Source of the DNA: Clostridiales bacterium
Lineage (GTDB): Bacteria; Bacillota; Clostridia; Christensenellales; JAISNN01
NCBI GenBank assembly: GCA_031276195.1
Contig: JAISNN010000019.1
Coordinates: 1 to 60,120, forward strand
Length of the DNA: 60,120 nucleotides
Reading direction: 5' to 3'
Shown here: positions 5,759 through 56,287 of the stretch, in pieces
Numbering within the stretch: the stretch's first letter is position 1
Layout of the letters: each line of letters starts with the position of its first letter
Notes under the pieces: model-generated
The model's input: only the letters and a program-made list of their open reading frames with translations
What the model was told of the DNA's origin: nothing
Databases searched by the model: none
Made by a program: the position numbers and the translations under genes

Positions 5759-6103
5759 ACGGGAATGTGAGGGTTTGGGAGAGCTGAGGATTTAGACCGC
5801 TCCGCCGTTGTCCTTTCGGCGGAGGGGAATATAAGGATAATAAGTGAAATGCCGTTAAAATGCGCCGTTTCCGTTTTCTATCGTCATTGACGTAAAGGGT
5901 AATATTTTAAGCGGTCGCCCCACCCCTACACCCCTCCCACGGAGGGGAATAGCGGATAATAAGGGAAAAATGTCGTTAAAATGCGTCGCTTTTTAAGTCA
6001 TATCATTGTTGACGTAAACGGTAAAATATCAAACGTAACGTTTCGCCCCACCCTTAGAATCGTCGAATAAACTTGAACGAATTTTAGAATGCGTCTTTTT
6101 TGC
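5759..6103. repeat. Spacer with REP-like elements
   Basis: GC-rich elements at 5797-5832 (degenerate) and 5915-5950, plus a partial one near 6047. They are embedded in the same roughly 125-bp unit seen at 60-440 (GTGAAATGCCGTTAAAATGC flank). No gene is seen. Confidence 0.8.
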
Positions 6104-6261: not shown

Positions 6262-6330
6262 AAATCTAAAAATTGAAAGCGGCGTGATATTATGATATAT
6301 AAAAAGGTTTGATATTTTTCCGTTTTTATG

Positions 6331-6700
6331 TTAGTATAATAATATAACGGCAATTTCGTAAATATTTTAGGACGACGATATAACCGAAATTACGTAAATG
6401 CGTTAGTATAATGATGTAACCGAAATTGCGTAAATGCGTTAGTATAATGATATAATTGAAATTACGTAAATGCGTTAGTATAATTATATAACCGAAATTG
6501 CGTAAATGCGTTAGTATAATGATATAATTGAAATTACGTAAATACGTTAGTATAATGATATAACCGAAATTGCGTAAATGCGTTAGTATAATGATATAAC
6601 CGAAATTACGTAAATACGTTAGTATAATGATATAATTGAAATTGCGTAAATGCGTTAGTGTAATTATATAACCGAAATTGCGAAAAATAGTATAATATGT
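6331..6700 (+). promoter_or_regulatory. Tandem 36-bp promoter-like array upstream of ftsH
   Basis: About ten to eleven units at exactly 36-bp spacing. TTAGTATAAT starts at 6331, 6403, 6439, 6475, 6511, 6547, 6583 and 6619, with variants near 6367, 6655 and 6689. Each unit holds a -10-like TATAAT. In some units the sequence 17 nt upstream is TTGAAA (6456-6461 to 6479-6484; 6528-6533 to 6551-6556), giving near-consensus sigma-A promoters. A third such unit (6636-6641) has TGTAAT as -10. In the others it is CCGAAA. The array therefore reads as alternating strong and weak promoters aimed at ftsH. The reverse-strand open frame through it is only the repeat translated. Confidence 0.7.
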
Positions 6701-6743
6701 AAAAAACATACTTTGATGTAAAAAACATACTTTGGAGGCCTTA

Positions 6744-8807
6744 GTGAAAAAATACGGTTACTTAAAAAACATCATCGTACTGCTCGTCTTTGTGGGCGCG
6801 GCGGTCCTTATCGCTTTGTCGTTGGGTTCGGGAAAGCCCGAGGAGCGTAAGCCCGACGAGATCATCGCGGGAGTTTTGAGCGGCGAAATCGTCGAAATTC
6901 AAATCACGACGTATAGAGTCGTCTATCGGAAATCGGGTTCCGCGACAAAGGAAAAAGACTTCCCGAAACGTTTCGACGGTTATGCCTACGTTTCGTCGAG
7001 GGTCAACTTTGAAAACGTACTGAGAGAAAGATACGCCGAACATCTTGTCGTGTCCAAAACCGCCGAATGGGAAAAAGACGGAAAAACCGCGGACGAAATC
7101 GCCCTCGAATTGTTGAAACTCGACACGTCGCTCCCCGATTCGCTGATCGAATTTGACGACCCGAACCGCGGCGCGGTCTTTATGAATATCGTTCTGCCGA
7201 TTTTGGGCTTTCTCATCGTGGGCGTCGTCGTGTTTTTTATGTTCCGCCAAACGCAGGGCGCGAACGTCAAGGCGATGAATTTCGGGAAAACCAAGGCGAG
7301 AGTTACAAAAGACGTAAAAATACGATTTTCCGACGTCGCGGGCGTCGAAGAAGAAAAAGAGGAATTGCGCGAAATCGTCGAATTCTTAAAGGCTCCCAAA
7401 AAATTTACGGAGTTGGGCGCGAGAATCCCCAAAGGCGTTCTCTTGGTCGGCGAACCAGGAACGGGAAAAACCCTTTTTGCAAAGGCGGTCGCCGGCGAAG
7501 CGAGAGTTCCGTTTTTTAATATCAGCGGCTCGGATTTCGTCGAAATGTTCGTGGGCGTGGGCGCGTCGAGAGTGCGCGATTTGTTCGAACAGGCAAAACT
7601 CAACAAACCTTGCATAATCTTTATCGACGAAATCGACGCGGTCGGACGGCAGCGCGGCGCGGGACTTGGCGGCGGACACGACGAGAGAGAACAAACGCTA
7701 AATCAATTGCTCGTGCATATGGACGGATTCGAAACCAACGAGGGAATCATCGTTATGGCGGCGACGAACAGAGTGGATATTTTGGATCAGGCTCTGCTCC
7801 GCCCGGGCAGGTTCGACAGACAGATATATATAAACGTCCCCGACGTAAAAGGCAGAGAAGCCATACTCCGCGTCCATAGCAGAAATAAAAAACTCGCCCC
7901 CGACGTGAATTTGCAGCATATCGCAAGGCTGACGGGCGGCTTCACGGGCGCGGATCTCGAAAATCTCCTGAACGAAGCCGCGATATTGACCGCGCGCGCG
8001 GGCAGAGCGCAAACGAATATGGCGGATATCGGCGAGGCCGTGAATAAGGTTACCGCCGGACCGCAGAAAAAAAGCCGCCTCGTTACGGAATTCGATAAAC
8101 GCATTACGGCGTACCACGAGGCGGGACACGCCGTCGTCGCCAGAACCGTGCCGAATCACGACAACGTTCACGAAGTCAGCATAATCCCGCGCGGTCCTAT
8201 GGCGGGATATACCCTTATGCGCCCCGATAACGACGACAACCATATGACAAAGGGCAAATTCATAAGTTCGATCAAAACACTTCTCGCCGGACGCGCCGCG
8301 GAGGAAATCATCCTCGACGATATCAGCGCGGGCGCGTCAAGCGATATCAAACGCGCATCCGGAATCGCAAGAAAAATGATCGCGGAACTCGGAATGAGCG
8401 AAACACTCGGGAATATCTATCTCGGAAGCGATAACGAAGTCTTCTTGGGACGGGACTATCAAGCGCATAAAAATTACAGCGAGGAAATCGCAGCCGTCAT
8501 AGATAACGAAGTCAAAAGATTGATCGACGGGTGCTACGGAGAAGCGAAACGAATCGTTTCGGAAAACCTATCCGTCATAGAAAATATGGTCAAATTGCTA
8601 TATAAACGCGAAACGATCTATACCGCCGAAATCGATATGCTGTTCGCCGGGAAAACCGCCGCCGAAATCGAAGAGTATCTCGCCGGGGAAGAACGCAAAA
8701 AAGCCGAAAAAGCGGAGGATAATACCGCGAAACCGGAGGATAATATAGCCGAAGACGACGGGGGAAACGCCGCCGAAAACGACGGGGAAAAAAGAGATTC
8801 GGAATAG
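6744..8807 (+). CDS. ftsH: ATP-dependent zinc metalloprotease FtsH
   Basis: A 687-residue membrane-anchored AAA+ protease that degrades misfolded membrane proteins and some regulators. Counted from the chosen start: TM helix at about 8-27, extracytoplasmic domain, TM at about 147-167, Walker A GEPGTGKT at 236-243, Walker [10 protein letters not shown] near 290-298, arginine-finger region [10 protein letters not shown], and zinc site HEAGH at 458-462. All key residues are present. The last 40 residues are a charged Glu/Asp/Lys/Asn tail. The start is taken as GTG at 6744, because TTTGGAGG (6731-6738) sits 5 nt before it; an upstream in-frame TTG at 6732 overlaps that site. A direct duplication of about 19 bp (AAAAAACATACTTTG) precedes the Shine-Dalgarno. 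Expression probably comes from the 36-bp promoter array upstream, and a terminator hairpin follows at 8841. Confidence 0.97.
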
Positions 8808-20512: not shown

Positions 20513-20548
20513 TAGTTTTCCCGAAAAAAATTATACTTTATTACAATT

Positions 20549-20755
20549 TTTTAGAATGCCGGTTGAACGGTCGTTGAATACGATATTAAATTTTTTAAAA
20601 TGAGGATAGAACCGCCCATGAATACGGTATTAAATTTTTTAAAATACGGATCGAACCGTCTATGAATACGGTATTAAATTTTTTAGAACGCAGATCGAAC
20701 CGCCTATGAATACGGTATTAAAATGTTTTAAAATGAGTATTGCGTTGTCGGCGGA
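20549..20755. repeat. 44-bp tandem repeat upstream of tetR
   Basis: Four units marked by GAATACGRTATTAAA at 20576, 20620, 20664 and 20708 (period exactly 44 bp), each with GAACCG between. Their place just upstream of the regulator's promoter would suit an operator array, but nothing proves binding. Confidence 0.8.
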
Positions 20756-20891: not shown

Positions 20892-22751
20892 TTAACGGTT
20901 TTCGTCCTTTTTTCTGATGTCTTTTCTCATAACTTTTCCGCTGACCGTTTTCGGGAGCGCGTCGACGAATTCGATAATGCGCGGATATTTATAGGGCGCG
21001 GTGGCTTTTTTGACGTGTTCTTGAAGTTCTTTTTTGAGTCCGTCGGAGGGAGTGAAGCCTTTCGCGAGGACGATCGTCGCCTTGACTATTTGTCCGCGCA
21101 GCGGGTCGGGGACGGCGGTTATCGCGCATTCTAAGACGGACGGGTGTTCGTGCAGCGCGCTTTCCACTTCGAAAGGTCCGATCCGATATCCCGAACTTTT
21201 GATGATGTCGTCTTTGCGTCCGACGAACCAGAGATACCCGTCGGCGTCGGCGTAGGCGAGGTCGCCCGTTCCGTAATATTTGCCCGCCAAGGCGGCGTCC
21301 GTCTTTTCTTTGTCTTTGTGATATCCCATAAGGAGGCTGAAATTGTCTTTTTTGTTGAGAATGGCGAGTTCGCCGATCGCGCCGTTCGGTACGGGTTCGC
21401 CGTCGTCGCCGATCAAATCGACCTTATAGACGGGCGAGGGACGCCCCATCGAGCCTTGTTTCGGGGTGAGGCAGGTGAAAGTTCCGGCGATGACCGCGCT
21501 CTCAGACTGCCCGAAACCTTCGTGAATTTTTAAGCCCGTTATGCGGTCGAATTGATTGAAAATTTCGGCGTTTAAAGGTTCGCCCGCCGTGGAACAATGC
21601 TTGACGGAGGAGAGGTCGAATCCCGAAAGATCTTCCTTGACCAAAAAACGGTATATCGTCGGCGGAGCGCAAAAAGTCGTGATTTTATATTTCGAGAGGA
21701 GGGGGAGGATGTCGGTCGGGGTAAACCTACCGTAGTAGTCGTAGCCGAAAACCGCGCTTCCCGCGATCCATTGCCCGTATATTTTGCCCCACGAAAATTT
21801 CGCCCAGCCCGTCTCCGCCATCGTGAAATGCAAGCCGTCGTCGAGAACGCCGTGCCAATATTTCGCGTTTATGATATGCCCCAGAGGGTAGGTGAAGTCG
21901 TGAGCGACCATTTTGGGATAACCCGTCGTCCCCGAAGTAAAATATACCAGCATCATATCGGAATTTTTGTTGACGATTTTTTGGTATTTCGCGGGGGCGG
22001 CTTGAAGTTCGGCTTTTAGGCTGATGAAACCGCCGCCGGTGTTTTCGGAATTCGCATTTTGCGGTATAGAGCCGCCGTTTTGCCGGGTTTTATCCGTTTC
22101 GTTTTGAGCGTTTTCGGGGTTAGTATTTTGCGGTATAGAACCGCCGGTTTGCCGGGTTTTATCCGTTTCGTTTTGAGCGTTTTCGGAATTCGTATTTTGC
22201 GGTATAGAACCGCCGGTTGTTTGAGTTTTATCCGTTTTATTATGCGGTTCTTCGGTTATAAAAATATGTTTCAGCGTCGGGCAGTCGGGCAGCGAAGTTT
22301 TGAGATGCGAAAGAATTTCCTCTTCGTTGACCGAAAAAATCATCTTTACGTCCGCGCTGTTGCAGCGGTAGATTATGTCCTTCGGAGTGAGCATACACGT
22401 GGCGGGAATGATGACCGCGCCGATCTTGTGGGCGGCGACCGCGACGACCCAATATTCATAGCGGCGGTTTAGCATCGTCATAATAAAATCGCCCTTTTCC
22501 GCGCCGTATTTTTGCATTACGGCGGCGGCTTTGTCCGAAAGTTCGGCGAGTTCCTTAAAGGTTATGATTTTCTCCGCGCCTTTGTCGTCGCACCAAACCA
22601 ACGCGCGCTTTTCGGGAGCGAGGGCGGCGTATTTGTCAACTACGTCGTAGCCGAAATTGAAGCCGTCTTTGACGGAAATTTTTAGATTCTTGGAAAAATC
22701 GTCGTAGTCTTTAAATTCGATTTCGTTTAAAAAGTCGCCGAGTAAATTCAT
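20892..22751 (-). CDS. AMP-forming acyl-CoA synthetase with repeat insertion
   Basis: A 619-residue ANL-superfamily adenylating enzyme that activates a carboxylate with ATP and CoA, like acetyl- or medium-chain acyl-CoA synthetases. Motifs: phosphate loop YFTSGTTGYPK (270-280), GQSES in the A5 region, YGTGDLA, GRKDDIIKSSGYRIGPFEVE, and the C-terminal catalytic lysine in PKTVSGKVMRKDI. Residues about 171-240 are an insertion absent from the family: three copies of a 23-residue (69-nt) unit beginning GGSIPQN. Each encodes a GCGGTATAGARCCGCC palindrome (22061-22076, 22130-22145, 22199-22214). It lies in a surface loop just before the phosphate-loop strand and keeps the frame. The gene is downstream of thyA and folA on the same strand. 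GGAG lies 14 nt before the ATG. Confidence 0.9.
   Translation of the reverse strand: MNLLGDFLNEIEFKDYDDFSKNLKISVKDGFNFGYDVVDKYAALAPEKRALVWCDDKGAEKIITFKELAELSDKAAAVMQKYGAEKGDFIMTMLNRRYEYWVVAVAAHKIGAVIIPATCMLTPKDIIYRCNSADVKMIFSVNEEEILSHLKTSLPDCPTLKHIFITEEPHNKTDKTQTTGGSIPQNTNSENAQNETDKTRQTGGSIPQNTNPENAQNETDKTRQNGGSIPQNANSENTGGGFISLKAELQAAPAKYQKIVNKNSDMMLVYFTSGTTGYPKMVAHDFTYPLGHIINAKYWHGVLDDGLHFTMAETGWAKFSWGKIYGQWIAGSAVFGYDYYGRFTPTDILPLLSKYKITTFCAPPTIYRFLVKEDLSGFDLSSVKHCSTAGEPLNAEIFNQFDRITGLKIHEGFGQSESAVIAGTFTCLTPKQGSMGRPSPVYKVDLIGDDGEPVPNGAIGELAILNKKDNFSLLMGYHKDKEKTDAALAGKYYGTGDLAYADADGYLWFVGRKDDIIKSSGYRIGPFEVESALHEHPSVLECAITAVPDPLRGQIVKATIVLAKGFTPSDGLKKELQEHVKKATAPYKYPRIIEFVDALPKTVSGKVMRKDIRKKDENR
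22061..22214. repeat. Palindromic element, three in-frame copies in acyl-CoA synthetase
   Basis: Copies at 22061-22076, 22130-22145 and 22199-22214, period exactly 69 bp. On the coding strand they are read as Gly-Gly-Ser-Ile-Pro-Gln. The spacer sequence between copies is itself conserved, encoding ENAQNETDKTRQ. Confidence 0.9.
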
Positions 22752-30822: not shown

Positions 30823-31184
30823 AGAAAAAACGCGGTACTATACCGCGGAAAAAGTTATATTTAAAGCGTATTTAAACGAAAAAACATCACACAAAAACGC
30901 GGTACTATACCGCGGAAAAAACGTAAAGCATTACACTAAACGCCGCTTATAGTTAGATTAAAGCAAAGCAAAAAAACGGCTCTATACCGTTTGTAAGCAT
31001 CACGCAAAAACGCGGTACTATACCGCGGAAAAAAACGTAAAGCATTACACTAAACGCGGCTTATAGTTGGATTAAAGCAAAGCAAAAAAACGGCTCTATA
31101 CCGTTTGTAAACATCACACAAAAACGCGGTACTATACCGCGGAAAAAGCCATAAAAAACGCCATATTAAATTCGGAGATAGCAT
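30823..31184 (+). repeat. Palindromic-element array between rpoB and rpoC
   Basis: Four perfect CGCGGTACTATACCGCGG copies at 30831-30848, 30898-30915, 31011-31028 and 31125-31142. The last three are 113-114 bp apart in a duplicated block that also holds two decayed copies (CGGCTCTATACCGT). The array fills the whole gap of an operon in which rpoB and rpoC normally lie close together. No promoter or terminator is evident in it. Confidence 0.92.
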
Positions 31185-42915: not shown

Positions 42916-43767
42916 ATGGCGGACAATAACAATTTTGAAGACGGGTTTTATCGCGCCGCTCCGACTGCGGACGCGAATATAAGTCGCGGCTTTGTCTATG
43001 AAAAGCCCGAGCCGGCGGCATATTCCGCACCCGACCGCGCGCCGCATAAAAATACGCTGCCGAGAAGGGCGTCGCATAAGGACACGGTTCCGAAGCCCGC
43101 CCCCTATAAGGATACGATCCCGAAGCCCGCGCCGTATAAGGAATTGAAACCGCAGGCGGCTCCCTATAAAGAACTTAGACCGCAAGCGGCTCCGTATAAG
43201 GAATTGAGGCCGCCCGTTTCTCCGTATAAAAACACCCTTCCTTCGGTCGCGCCGCATAAAAATTATATGCCCGCGCTTGCGCCCGAAAAGGAATACGACG
43301 CGGCGGAGTCCGTAACGCTGATCGCCGCCTCATCTCATAAAGACGTTATTCCCAAACCCGCGCCGCATAAAGACAGCAAGCCGAAACGCGCGCCGCATAA
43401 AAATTATATGCCCGCGCTTGCCCCTCATAAGGACAATAGGCCGATCGAGGCGGAGCCGAAACCTCTTGATCCGACGGCTTCGAGATATTTAGGGCCGGGC
43501 GTCGCGCCGTACAAAAACACGCTGCCGCCCGTCGCGCCGTATGTAAATTTGACGCCGCCCGTCGAGCCGTATAAAGAGTTAAGACCTCCGCGCGCTCCCC
43601 ATAAAGACGTCGCGCCGAAACCCGCGCCGAAAGCGTATAACTTCTTTGCGGACTACAATCCGAATTTCACGCCCGACGAACCCGTTATGCCGCCCGACCC
43701 GTACGCCGGCGACAAGAGAACGAAAAAAATGCTGAAAAAATTGAAAAAGAAAAACCGTAAAAAATAA
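42916..43767 (+). CDS. Pro/Lys decapeptide-repeat protein 1
   Basis: 283 residues, no signal peptide and no membrane helix. Residues about 35-240 are mostly ten-residue repeats of the form APYKELRPQA / APHKDTKPSV (x-Ala-Pro-His/Tyr-Lys-Asp/Glu-x-x-Pro-x). A different segment, EKEYDAAESVTLIAASSHKD, interrupts them. The C-terminus is YNFFADYNPNFTPDEPVMPP, then a Lys-rich end (MLKKLKKKNRKK). The composition (Pro, Lys, Ala) predicts an extended polyproline-like rod. It is paralogous to the next gene. No homologue family is recognised. A GAGAGAGGA stretch lies before the ATG at 42916. Confidence 0.8.
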   Translation: MADNNNFEDGFYRAAPTADANISRGFVYEKPEPAAYSAPDRAPHKNTLPRRASHKDTVPKPAPYKDTIPKPAPYKELKPQAAPYKELRPQAAPYKELRPPVSPYKNTLPSVAPHKNYMPALAPEKEYDAAESVTLIAASSHKDVIPKPAPHKDSKPKRAPHKNYMPALAPHKDNRPIEAEPKPLDPTASRYLGPGVAPYKNTLPPVAPYVNLTPPVEPYKELRPPRAPHKDVAPKPAPKAYNFFADYNPNFTPDEPVMPPDPYAGDKRTKKMLKKLKKKNRKK

Positions 43768-44061
43768 CGGCGGATAAAAAGCCGCTTAAACGTGATTACC
43801 GCATACAAAAAACGGATAAAAAGCCGCTAAACGTGATTACCGCATACAAAAAAACGGATAAAAAGCCGCTAAACGTAATTACCGCATACAAAAAAACGGA
43901 TAAACGCCCGTTAAATTTCGGCAAACGAATAAAAAACGGACAAAAAGTCATTTAACATATATAAACGGCTATAAACGGCATACCGGAGAAATAAAAAGAC
44001 AACCGAAAAAAAATAATAAATTAGGCGAAATTAATTTGTGTCGAAAAGGAAGGGTATAATA
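43768..44061. repeat. 42-bp tandem repeat between the two repeat-protein genes
   Basis: GGATAAAAAGCCGCT units at 43772, 43814 and 43856, with a decayed one at 43898; period 42 bp. No hairpin terminator is evident. Confidence 0.75.
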
Positions 44062-45069
44062 ATGGATGCTTTTAAAAAAGACGGAAAAAACATCGGCAAA
44101 TACGTAACTTCGTTGCGTTCGGTCGCGCCGCACAAGGACACCAAGCCTTCGGTCGCGCCGTATAAAGATACAAAACCCGCGGTCGAGCCCTATAAGGACA
44201 CCAAGCCTTCGGTCGAACCGCATAAGGACAATAAGCCTTCGGTCGCGCCGCACAAAAACACCCAACCCTCTGTCGCGCCCCATAAGGATACCAAACCCGT
44301 CCGCGTCCCCCATAAGGACGTCAAGCCTTCGCGCGCGCCCTTTAAAGACACCAAGCCTCCGCGCGCTCCGCGCAAAAAATATGACCCGACGGAAAACGTT
44401 TCTATGGGCATAGAAACCGCGCCGCATAAGGACGTAAGTCCTAAGCCCGCGCCCTATAAAGACACAAAACCGAAACGCGAACCTTTTTTTGACATAAGAC
44501 CGAAGCGCGCGCCGCATAAAGACTTAAAGCCCAAACGCGCGCCGCATAAGGACAACAGACCGAAACTCGCGCCCGAAAAGGAATACGACGCGGCGGAGTC
44601 CGTGATGCTGATCGCTTCCGCGCCGCATAAGGACGTGATCCCTCAGCCCGCGCCCTACAAAGACACAAAGCCCAAACGCGTTCCGCATAAGGACAAAAAA
44701 CCAAGACGCGACCCGGATAAGGAACATTCCGCGACGGATACGATTACGATCATCACGTCCGCGCCGCCGAAAGACGTAAAACCTAAACGCGCGCCGCACA
44801 AAAACAGACTTCCGTCCGTCGCGCCCTATAAAGACACCAAACCGCCGCGCGCGCCCCACAAGGACAACAAACCGAAACGCGCGCCGCATAAGGACAATAA
44901 GCCGCAAAGGGATCCCGACGCGTATAATATGTTCGCGGACTACGATCCGAATTTCGTTCCGGACGAACCCGTTATGCCGAGCGATCCCTACGCGAACGAC
45001 AAGAGAGCCAAAAAATTGCAAAAAAAGTTGAAAAAACTTGAAAAGAAACAAAAAAAACGGAAAAAATAA
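44062..45069 (+). CDS. Pro/Lys decapeptide-repeat protein 2
   Basis: 335 residues, soluble. About 25 ten-residue repeats (APHKDTKPSV, APYKDTKPAV, RAPHKDNKPK) run from residue 20 to 290. They are divided into blocks by KKYDPTENVSMGIETAPHKD, EKEYDAAESVMLIASAPHKD and DKEHSATDTITIITSAPPKD. The C-terminus YNMFADYDPNFVPDEPVMPS and the Lys-rich end match the paralogue at 42916. AGGAAGGG precedes the ATG at 44062; an in-frame GTG at 44038 lies before that site. Basic, proline-rich and non-membrane, so perhaps a scaffold or a nucleic-acid- or envelope-associated rod. Function unknown. Confidence 0.82.
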   Translation: MDAFKKDGKNIGKYVTSLRSVAPHKDTKPSVAPYKDTKPAVEPYKDTKPSVEPHKDNKPSVAPHKNTQPSVAPHKDTKPVRVPHKDVKPSRAPFKDTKPPRAPRKKYDPTENVSMGIETAPHKDVSPKPAPYKDTKPKREPFFDIRPKRAPHKDLKPKRAPHKDNRPKLAPEKEYDAAESVMLIASAPHKDVIPQPAPYKDTKPKRVPHKDKKPRRDPDKEHSATDTITIITSAPPKDVKPKRAPHKNRLPSVAPYKDTKPPRAPHKDNKPKRAPHKDNKPQRDPDAYNMFADYDPNFVPDEPVMPSDPYANDKRAKKLQKKLKKLEKKQKKRKK

Positions 45070-46084: not shown

Positions 46085-46465
46085 TACCCCTTTTCAAAAA
46101 CTTTTAGTAATTTTAATGCTATGCAAATTGCCGTTAAGTTCGGGATTTTCGGTAATTCACATGGAAACAAACTACGGTTAAAGCGGCGTAAAAATTCCCC
46201 TCCGGGGGAGGGGTAGGGGTGGGGCGGCTCTTTTTTTTTCAAAAACTTTTAGTAATTTTAATGCTATGTAAATTACAGTTAAATTCGGGATTTTCGGTAA
46301 TTCAAAAGGAAACAAACTGCGGTTAAACCGGCGTAAAAATTCCCCTCCGTGGGAGGGGTAGGGGTGGGGCGGTTCTTTTTTTCAAAAACTTTCGGTAATT
46401 TTGAGGAAAACAAACTACGGTTAAACAAGGGTAAAAATAATTACTAAAAGTTTTTGAAAGAGGGT

Positions 46466-50087: not shown

Positions 50088-50129
50088 AGGAATAGTTTTA
50101 TCAATTTAAAAACAATATAAAGAACGCAA

Positions 50130-50600
50130 AAACACGGCAAAGATAATTAAAAACGGGATAAAAATAGGGCAAAAACAAGGTAAAAACACGCTAAAAATAG
50201 GGCAAAAACAAGGCGAAAACAGGGCGAAAACACGCTAAAATACGCTAAAAACACGGCAAAAACGGGATAAAAACAAGGCAAAAATAGGGCGAAAACACGC
50301 TAAAAACGGGGTAAAAATAGGGCAAAAACGGGATAAAAATAGGGCAAAAACAAGGCAAAAACAAGGCAAAAACGGGATAAAAATAGGGCAAAAATAGGGC
50401 AAAAACGGGATAAAAACAAGGCAAGAATAGGGCGAAAACAAGGTGAAAACACGCTAAAATACGCTAAAAACACGGCAAAAACACGCTAAAAATAGGGTAA
50501 AAATAGGGTGAAAATAGGGCGAAAACAAAGTAAAAACAAGGCAAAAACATGGTAAAAACAAGGCAAAAACGTGGTAAAAATAGGGCAAAAATAAAATAAA
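50130..50600. repeat. 11-bp phased A-tract array
   Basis: About 40 units such as AAAAATAGGGC, AAAAACAAGGC, AAAAACGGGAT and AAAAACACGCT. Starts fall every 11 bp (for example 50160, 50171, 50182, 50193). A-tracts repeated at the helical pitch should produce strongly curved DNA. The long minus-strand open frame across it is only the repeat translated. Confidence 0.8.
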
Positions 50601-53104: not shown

Positions 53105-53993
53105 AAAAGGTTAAAAAAATCAGATCGTGAAAAAATTAAACGAATAAGACCGCAGACAAAGAACGGCGGAAATAAACCGCGAAAAAATTACGCGGTAGAT
53201 GACGCAAGAAAAATTACGCGGTAGATAACGCGCGAAAAAATTAGGCTGTGGATAACGTAAAGGAAAAATTTTACGGATTTTCGTGAAAAATTCAAAAAAC
53301 GGCTCAAAAACGCTTGACATAGACGACGACGACGACGACGTATACTTAATTATTCAAGGCATATTGTGGATATCGGGATAAAACGCGGCGGATAAGTCTG
53401 TTTTTTTGAAGAGAAAGGATGAAAATTTAAGAAAAAGAGGAAAGTTCGCCCCACCCCTTGTTCCCCTCCCACGGAGGGGAATATAACGTAGATAGTACGC
53501 ACAAAACACAAACGAAATTTAAAACGCCAAAATGACTTAGAATTCGGAAATACAAAAAAGTTTTAAGGGCAGACGGAGTATAAATAAAATAAGGTCAAAA
53601 AAAGTATAAAGAGAATTATGAGGATAATAAGAGGTCGCCCCACCCCTTGCCCCTCCCACGGAGGGGAATATAACGTAAATAGTACGCACAAAACACAAAC
53701 GAAATTTAAAACGTCAAAATGACTTAGAATTCGGCAATACAAAAAAGTTTTAAGGGCAGGCGGAGTATAAATAAAATAAGGTCAAATAGAGTATAAAGAG
53801 AATTCGGAAATACAAAAGAAACTTAAAAAATGTTGAACGAAATTTAAGATACAAAAAGATTTCAAACGTCAAAAAAAATTCTCAAAAAAGTTTTAAGGGC
53901 AGACGGAGTATAAATAAAATAAGGTCAAACGGAGTATAAAGAGAATCCGGAAATACAAAAAAATCCAAAAAAAAGTTCAAAACGGTGAAAAAA
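53105..53993. repeat. Spacer with 190-bp duplicated block
   Basis: GC-rich elements at 53447-53482 and 53636-53670 head two copies of a roughly 190-bp block (ATAACGTARATAGTACGCACA flank, given here in part). Its AAAGTTTTAAGGGCAG.CGGAGTATAAATAAAATAAGG section appears a third time near 53890. A promoter with microsatellite spacer is at 53314-53346. No gene. Confidence 0.8.
53314..53346 (+). promoter_or_regulatory. Promoter with (GAC)6 microsatellite spacer
   Basis: TTGACA (53314-53319) and TATACT (53341-53346) are separated by 21 nt made of TA, six GAC triplets and a final G. Loss of one triplet would give 18 nt, close to the optimum, so strength should change stepwise with repeat number. It points toward the ABC transporter genes. 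Confidence 0.65.
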
Positions 53994-55829: not shown

Positions 55830-56287
55830 AACCGCGGAAAAAACGGATTGAAATTAAGGGATTTTAAACCGAATTAAATATAGTTTTGACGCGTGAAAAA
55901 ACGGATTCAAAAGACTAAAAACGCGGTATAGTACCGCGTGAAAAAACGGATTGAAAAACGGACAATTCTAAAAATGAGTGATAAAAATCGGTATAAATCC
56001 GAATCGGCCGCCCCACCCCTTTGATCCCCTCCCACGGAGGGGAATATAAGGAACGGAGTTTACGATAACTACCGCTTTATTTCGCCTTTTTAGAAATATC
56101 AAAAAACGGATTCAAAAAAATAAAAAACGCGGCATAGAACCGCGGAAAACAACGGATTCAAAAAAATAAAAAACGCGGCATAGAACCGCGTGAAAAACGG
56201 ATTCAAGAAACCGAAAAAACGCGGTATAGAACCGCTAAAAAAAGATTATATTACCGCGAAAAAGTCGGCGCGGAGGGAGGGCTTGAA
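55820..56287 (+). repeat. Palindromic elements and GC-rich element between ABC genes
   Basis: Palindromes at 55820-55837 (overlapping the upstream stop), 55922-55939, 56128-56145, 56174-56190 and 56220-56235, and a GC-rich element at 56009-56046. Five palindromes in 420 bp is the densest cluster in the window. Confidence 0.9.

Follow-up and report, generated by a model that had tools for sequence, protein, structure and literature searches.

A 36-bp minisatellite beside a conserved promoter, probably within the ftsH leader, in a repeat-rich Clostridiales genome

In Mycobacterium tuberculosis, the promoter tandem repeats (PTR/VNTR) include a 58-bp repeat located 12 bp upstream of lpdA (PMC12817950), and in Escherichia coli a VNTR occupies the 5' UTR of clbR (PMC7364221). 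Synthetic clusters of multiple core-tac promoters have been built for E. coli by authors who, writing in 2012, were aware of no tandem repetitive promoter occurring naturally in a prokaryote (PMC3293061). The locus described here, in a window of 60,120 nucleotides from a Clostridiales genome, resembles each of these in part. As with the M. tuberculosis PTR, a tandem repeat with a unit of tens of bases stands directly upstream of a gene, ftsH, and its copy number could alter expression. As with the clbR VNTR, the repeat falls in the interval between promoter and start codon, in what would be transcribed leader. As with the core-tac clusters, in which core promoters of about 40 bp follow one another head to tail, promoter-like units are arrayed before a gene. 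We conclude that the locus is probably a minisatellite specific to this lineage that lies in the 5' leader of ftsH, the gene being transcribed mainly from a conserved distal promoter at 6309-6337.

The array, its gene, and the promoter at its upstream edge

Tandem Repeats Finder (TRF) and a table of the units in register define a forward-strand array at 6330-6686 with the unit GTTAGTATAATGATATAACCGAAATTRCGTAAATGC (period 36, 9.9 copies, score 511, 85% matches). The array ends 57 bp short of the GTG start of ftsH (6744-8807, forward strand), which has GGAGG just upstream, lies in a context conserved in congeners, and opens a gene encoding the Pfam domains AAA (PF00004) and Peptidase M41 (PF01434). 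A preliminary description made from the sequence had placed about ten exact 36-bp units before ftsH; the position, the period, and the copy number hold, but the exactness does not, given the 85% matches. The units at the edges (1, 2, and 10) each carry 6 mismatches to the consensus and the inner units 0 to 4, and self-identity of the array is greater at a 72-bp lag (93%) than at a 36-bp lag (88%). Decayed edge units around a homogenised centre are the trace expected of repeat turnover. No exact repeat within the array is longer than 55 bp, a length that ordinary short reads can resolve; the copy number in the assembly is accordingly credible for such reads, and a collapsed or chimeric assembly was rejected.

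The 36-bp unit occurs in its own genome at the ftsH array only, and none of the four congeners with ftsH upstream sequence (G001, G003, G004, and G005) has a tandem array at this gene. The locus thus consists of head-to-tail copies of a unit in the 10- to 100-bp range of minisatellites (36 bp x 9.9), and it is lineage specific, the corresponding site in relatives having no array. Named relatives are Clostridiales MAGs, of termite-gut style as we read their isolate codes.

Between the array and the ftsH ribosome-binding site, TRF also found a perfect 19-bp duplication on the forward strand (ATGTAAAAAACATACTTTG x2, 6697-6734), each copy of which contains ATGT-AAAAA-ACAT. A structured RNA leader or riboswitch was considered and rejected, as the fold of the ftsH leader RNA was not unusual (z = +1.29) and Rfam gave no match in it. 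An opposite-strand ORF (6326-6709, 127 aa) was likewise rejected as a gene after Pfam gave no match; its frame stays open since the 36-bp period is divisible by 3.

Directly upstream of the array stands the block TTTGATATTTTTCCGTTTTTATGTTAGTATAAT, and at this edge lies a forward-strand promoter (6309-6337) that the preliminary description missed although it adjoins the array. It comprises a -35 element TTGATA (6309-6314), a 17-nt spacer ending in TGT (an extended -10), and a -10 element TAGTAT (6332-6337) that overlaps a TATAAT at 6335-6340. The sequence TTTGATATTTTT ... TNTGNTARTATAAT is invariant before ftsH in the window and in G001, G003, G004, and G005, while the flanks have diverged; the -10 reads TAATAT in the congeners versus TAGTAT in the window. 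The pattern TTGANA-N14-TGN-TARTAT has 22 matches versus 1 for the reversed control across six genomes, and 5 versus 0 in the genome of the window. Both hexamers, the 17-nt spacer, the TGn motif, and conservation across species are thus as found in promoters of SigA type. The array as delimited by TRF starts (6330) within the conserved block, in the -10 region of this promoter. Judged from sequence, the distal promoter appears sufficient for ftsH in the array-less congeners. Their ftsH leaders range from about 67 to 475 nt; this length varies freely and is therefore not constrained. Just upstream of the conserved promoter, another promoter-like site was observed at 6273-6301 (TTGAAA-N17-TATATA, with TGA before the -10).

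Promoter-like sites in the array and promoter habits of the genome

An in-register TATAAT is present in 8 of the 10 units, having been lost in unit 2 (TTTAGGACGACG) and replaced by TGTAAT in unit 10. At 17 nt upstream of these eight stand ATATTT (unit 1), CCGAAA (five cases), or TTGAAA (two cases), and the third TTGAAA, in unit 9, leads into TGTAAT. The earlier statement that each unit places TATAAT 17 nt after TTGAAA or CCGAAA is therefore incorrect. The two TTGAAA-N17-TATAAT sites (6456-6484 and 6528-6556, forward strand) are candidate internal promoters that match 11 of 12 consensus positions and lack TG. The CC-to-TT change that makes TTGAAA also converts TATAAC to the extended -10 TGATATAAT, which had been overlooked. 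This motif lies on the forward strand in unit 4 (6448-6456, TATAAT at 6451), unit 6 (6520-6528, TATAAT at 6523), and unit 9 (6628-6636, TATAAT at 6631), each time with a poor -35 (2/6). Between 5750 and 6800 there are 14 promoter-like sites scoring at least 9/12 versus 5.2 ± 2.2 in shuffles, a comparison in which the array copies are not independent; eight of the 14 are a single weak antisense match (9/12) repeated once per unit.

These sites can be read against the promoter habits of the genome, for which patterns were counted across the whole genome of the window with the reversed pattern as control. TTGAAA-N17-TATAAT occurs 24 times versus 4 for the control, TTGACA-N17-TATAAT 67 times versus 0, and TTGANA-N14-TGN-TATAAT 34 times versus 0. 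Of the 67 TTGACA-N17-TATAAT sites, 53 lack TG; of the TTGAAA-N17-TATAAT sites, the array aside, 14 of 22 have it, whereas the TTGAAA sites of the array have TAG instead; we infer that weaker -35 elements lean on TG. Strand counts were made in 33 kb of non-array DNA upstream of genes. They replaced an EM-trained weight matrix (98 upstream regions), which had overfitted bases flanking TG. In this DNA, TATAAT lacking TG and with a -35 of at most 3/6 is found 39 times sense and 42 times antisense, and the CCGAAA units look like this background. TATAAT lacking TG but with a 5/6 -35 occurs 7 times sense versus 2 antisense, and sites with TG 21 times versus 3. TTGANA-N17-TATAAT lacking TG has some sense bias (6 versus 2), and TG-TATAAT upstream of genes counts 20 to 21 sense versus 3 antisense. 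The two TTGAAA-N17-TATAAT sites are accordingly plausible as good candidate promoters, and the three TGATATAAT sites are possible ones.

If a serial promoter array requires a -35 and a -10 separated by 16 to 18 nt in each unit, this array falls outside the definition because most units lack a -35: two of 10 units combine a 5/6 -35 with TATAAT, while five have CCGAAA (3/6) and two are without TATAAT. These counts do not support the picture of about ten serial promoters, the five CCGAAA units belonging to a class without sense bias.

Tandem repeats across the genome

We sampled the genome of the window in 20 stretches (L079-L098) totaling 429 kb, taking plain ORFs as gene calls, with a minimum length of 100 aa for the intergenic figures and 150 aa for counts of orientation and promoter density in 105 intergenic arrays. 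The sample holds 300 arrays (70 per 100 kb) that cover 30% of intergenic bp, versus 0 to 33 arrays per 100 kb and 0 to 6% of intergenic bp in small samples of five congeners. Intergenic tandem repeats have undergone a massive expansion specific to this lineage. Coverage by arrays is 39% in convergent and 18% in divergent intergenic DNA, whereas promoter function would predict the opposite, and promoter matches of at least 11/12 number 1.25 per 10 kb within arrays versus 6.6 outside. Arrays here are thus a general, mostly promoter-poor phenomenon. The position of the ftsH array is ordinary, since 39 of the 105 are found in the 100 bp preceding an ORF start; in its sequence it is unusual, since it alone among the 105 has two sites of at least 11/12. 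Loss of mismatch repair was rejected as the source of the arrays, as MutS and MutL are both found in this genome and their loss therefore does not explain the expansion. No relevant reports emerged from a literature search for intergenic tandem repeats in the genomes of termite-gut bacteria. That lineage-specific tandem repeats make up 30% of the intergenic DNA sampled seems to us the more interesting question.

Several further repeats were observed. The dispersed intergenic repeat CGCCCCACCCCTNNNCCCCTCCCACGGAGGGGAAT has 108 copies in the 429 kb, 0 of them in called genes and 52 within tandem arrays, and none in 233 kb of congeners; in the window it is found at 5813-6055, 46091-46402, and 53446-53804. 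Many arrays, including those at 20539-20735, 22041-22237, 30882-31147, and 56101-56242 of the window, contain the short palindrome GCGGT-N5-ACCGC, which has 104 strand-hits in the 429 kb versus 2 in 233 kb of congeners. At 50126-50591 lies a long degenerate array with an 11/22/33-bp unit (AAAAACAGGGC) and about 40 copies of 11 bp, among the window's longest by copy number. Two adjacent ORFs at 42916-45069 (283 and 343 aa) consist of degenerate HKDTKP-type 10-residue repeats with a 30-bp period, so repeats occur in coding DNA too.

Origin of the array and comparison with described systems

In the account that we consider probable, slippage or unequal recombination would have copied, head to tail, a 36-bp segment made up of the -10 overlap of the conserved promoter (TAGTATAAT) together with the first transcribed positions, and the copies would then have been homogenised. 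The seed would have lain at the promoter end, and every copy would carry TATAAT because the seed held the -10 overlap. Transcription of ftsH mainly from 6309-6337 would yield a leader of about 400 nt containing the repeat. A CC-to-TT variant that spread to three units may then have created the two TTGAAA-N17-TATAAT sites and the three TGATATAAT sites, which might fire weakly as by-products and contribute a minor share of starts.

The view taken in the preliminary description, that several units start ftsH transcription and that copy number tunes its level, strikes us as unlikely. The two 11/12 sites, whose pattern exceeds its control in this genome, and the three TGATATAAT sites, with the sense bias of TG-TATAAT upstream of genes, speak for it, as does the finding that in E. 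coli synthetic tandem core-tac promoters increase expression step by step until five copies are reached (PMC3293061). Against it, most units belong to the class without sense bias, the -10 has decayed in two of 10, the TG seen in most TTGAAA-N17-TATAAT sites elsewhere is absent from those of the array, and the conserved distal promoter accounts for expression without the array. Moreover, the 36-bp spacing is smaller than the roughly 80 bp that RNA polymerase covers at initiation (PMC3293061), so neighbouring units would exclude each other. A fuller version holds that tandem duplication of the conserved promoter's -10, and then a CC-to-TT variant giving its own unit an extended -10 and the following unit a -35, produced several working promoters, a natural serial-promoter array, while the ancestral -10 weakened (TAGTAT for TAATAT), with unit turnover now setting ftsH expression. 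We think this improbable. The following tells against the leader reading: the change of the -10 from the congeners' TAATAT to TAGTAT may have made the distal promoter weaker and moved transcription into the repeat, the ftsH array is the one among 105 with two sites of at least 11/12, and TTGANA-N17-TATAAT has some sense bias even without TG.

The repeat might also act after initiation, its -10-like TATAATs serially pausing sigma-retaining polymerase or the leader altering mRNA stability or translation, which seems to us very improbable. Sigma-dependent pausing acts at -10-like elements near the start site. Twelve TATAATs lie in a span of about 360 nt that takes in the promoter and the sequence downstream of it, sigma70-dependent promoter-proximal pausing is widespread in E. 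coli (PMC7876045), and the clbR repeat shifts expression about two-fold from the 5' UTR (PMC7364221). Yet most units lie more than 60 nt from the start site, and the leader offers an ordinary fold, no Rfam match, and no conservation. Least probable of all, we believe, is a binding array for a putative regulator that binds the palindrome TTACGTAA. This palindrome is present in four units, and the 429-kb sample has just three copies elsewhere, a scarcity that speaks against a regulon; the remaining units read TTGCGTAA or are decayed, so that the palindrome is broken, and a 36-bp period does not correspond to an integral number of helical turns.

Under the minisatellite reading, the ftsH locus departs from the systems that it resembles. 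For the M. tuberculosis PTR, copy-number variation and an effect on expression are documented, whereas the ftsH array is known from one genome and sits downstream of a conserved promoter. The clbR unit is 8 bp long with a measured effect of roughly two-fold, and its units are not promoter-like as described. The core-tac clusters are engineered from complete, strong units, unlike the ftsH array, most of whose units lack a -35; if the internal sites do fire, the array would be their natural counterpart and an example of tandem duplication giving rise to new promoters. With bacterial minisatellites and intergenic VNTRs it shares a homogenised centre, decayed edges, lineage specificity, and an intergenic position, differing in that it appears to have been seeded on a promoter -10, in a genome of exceptional array density. 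On this reading, the locus illustrates that promoter-like arrays need no selection for promoters to arise: a genome prone to slippage duplicates a -10 box, and the resulting copies resemble regulatory DNA.
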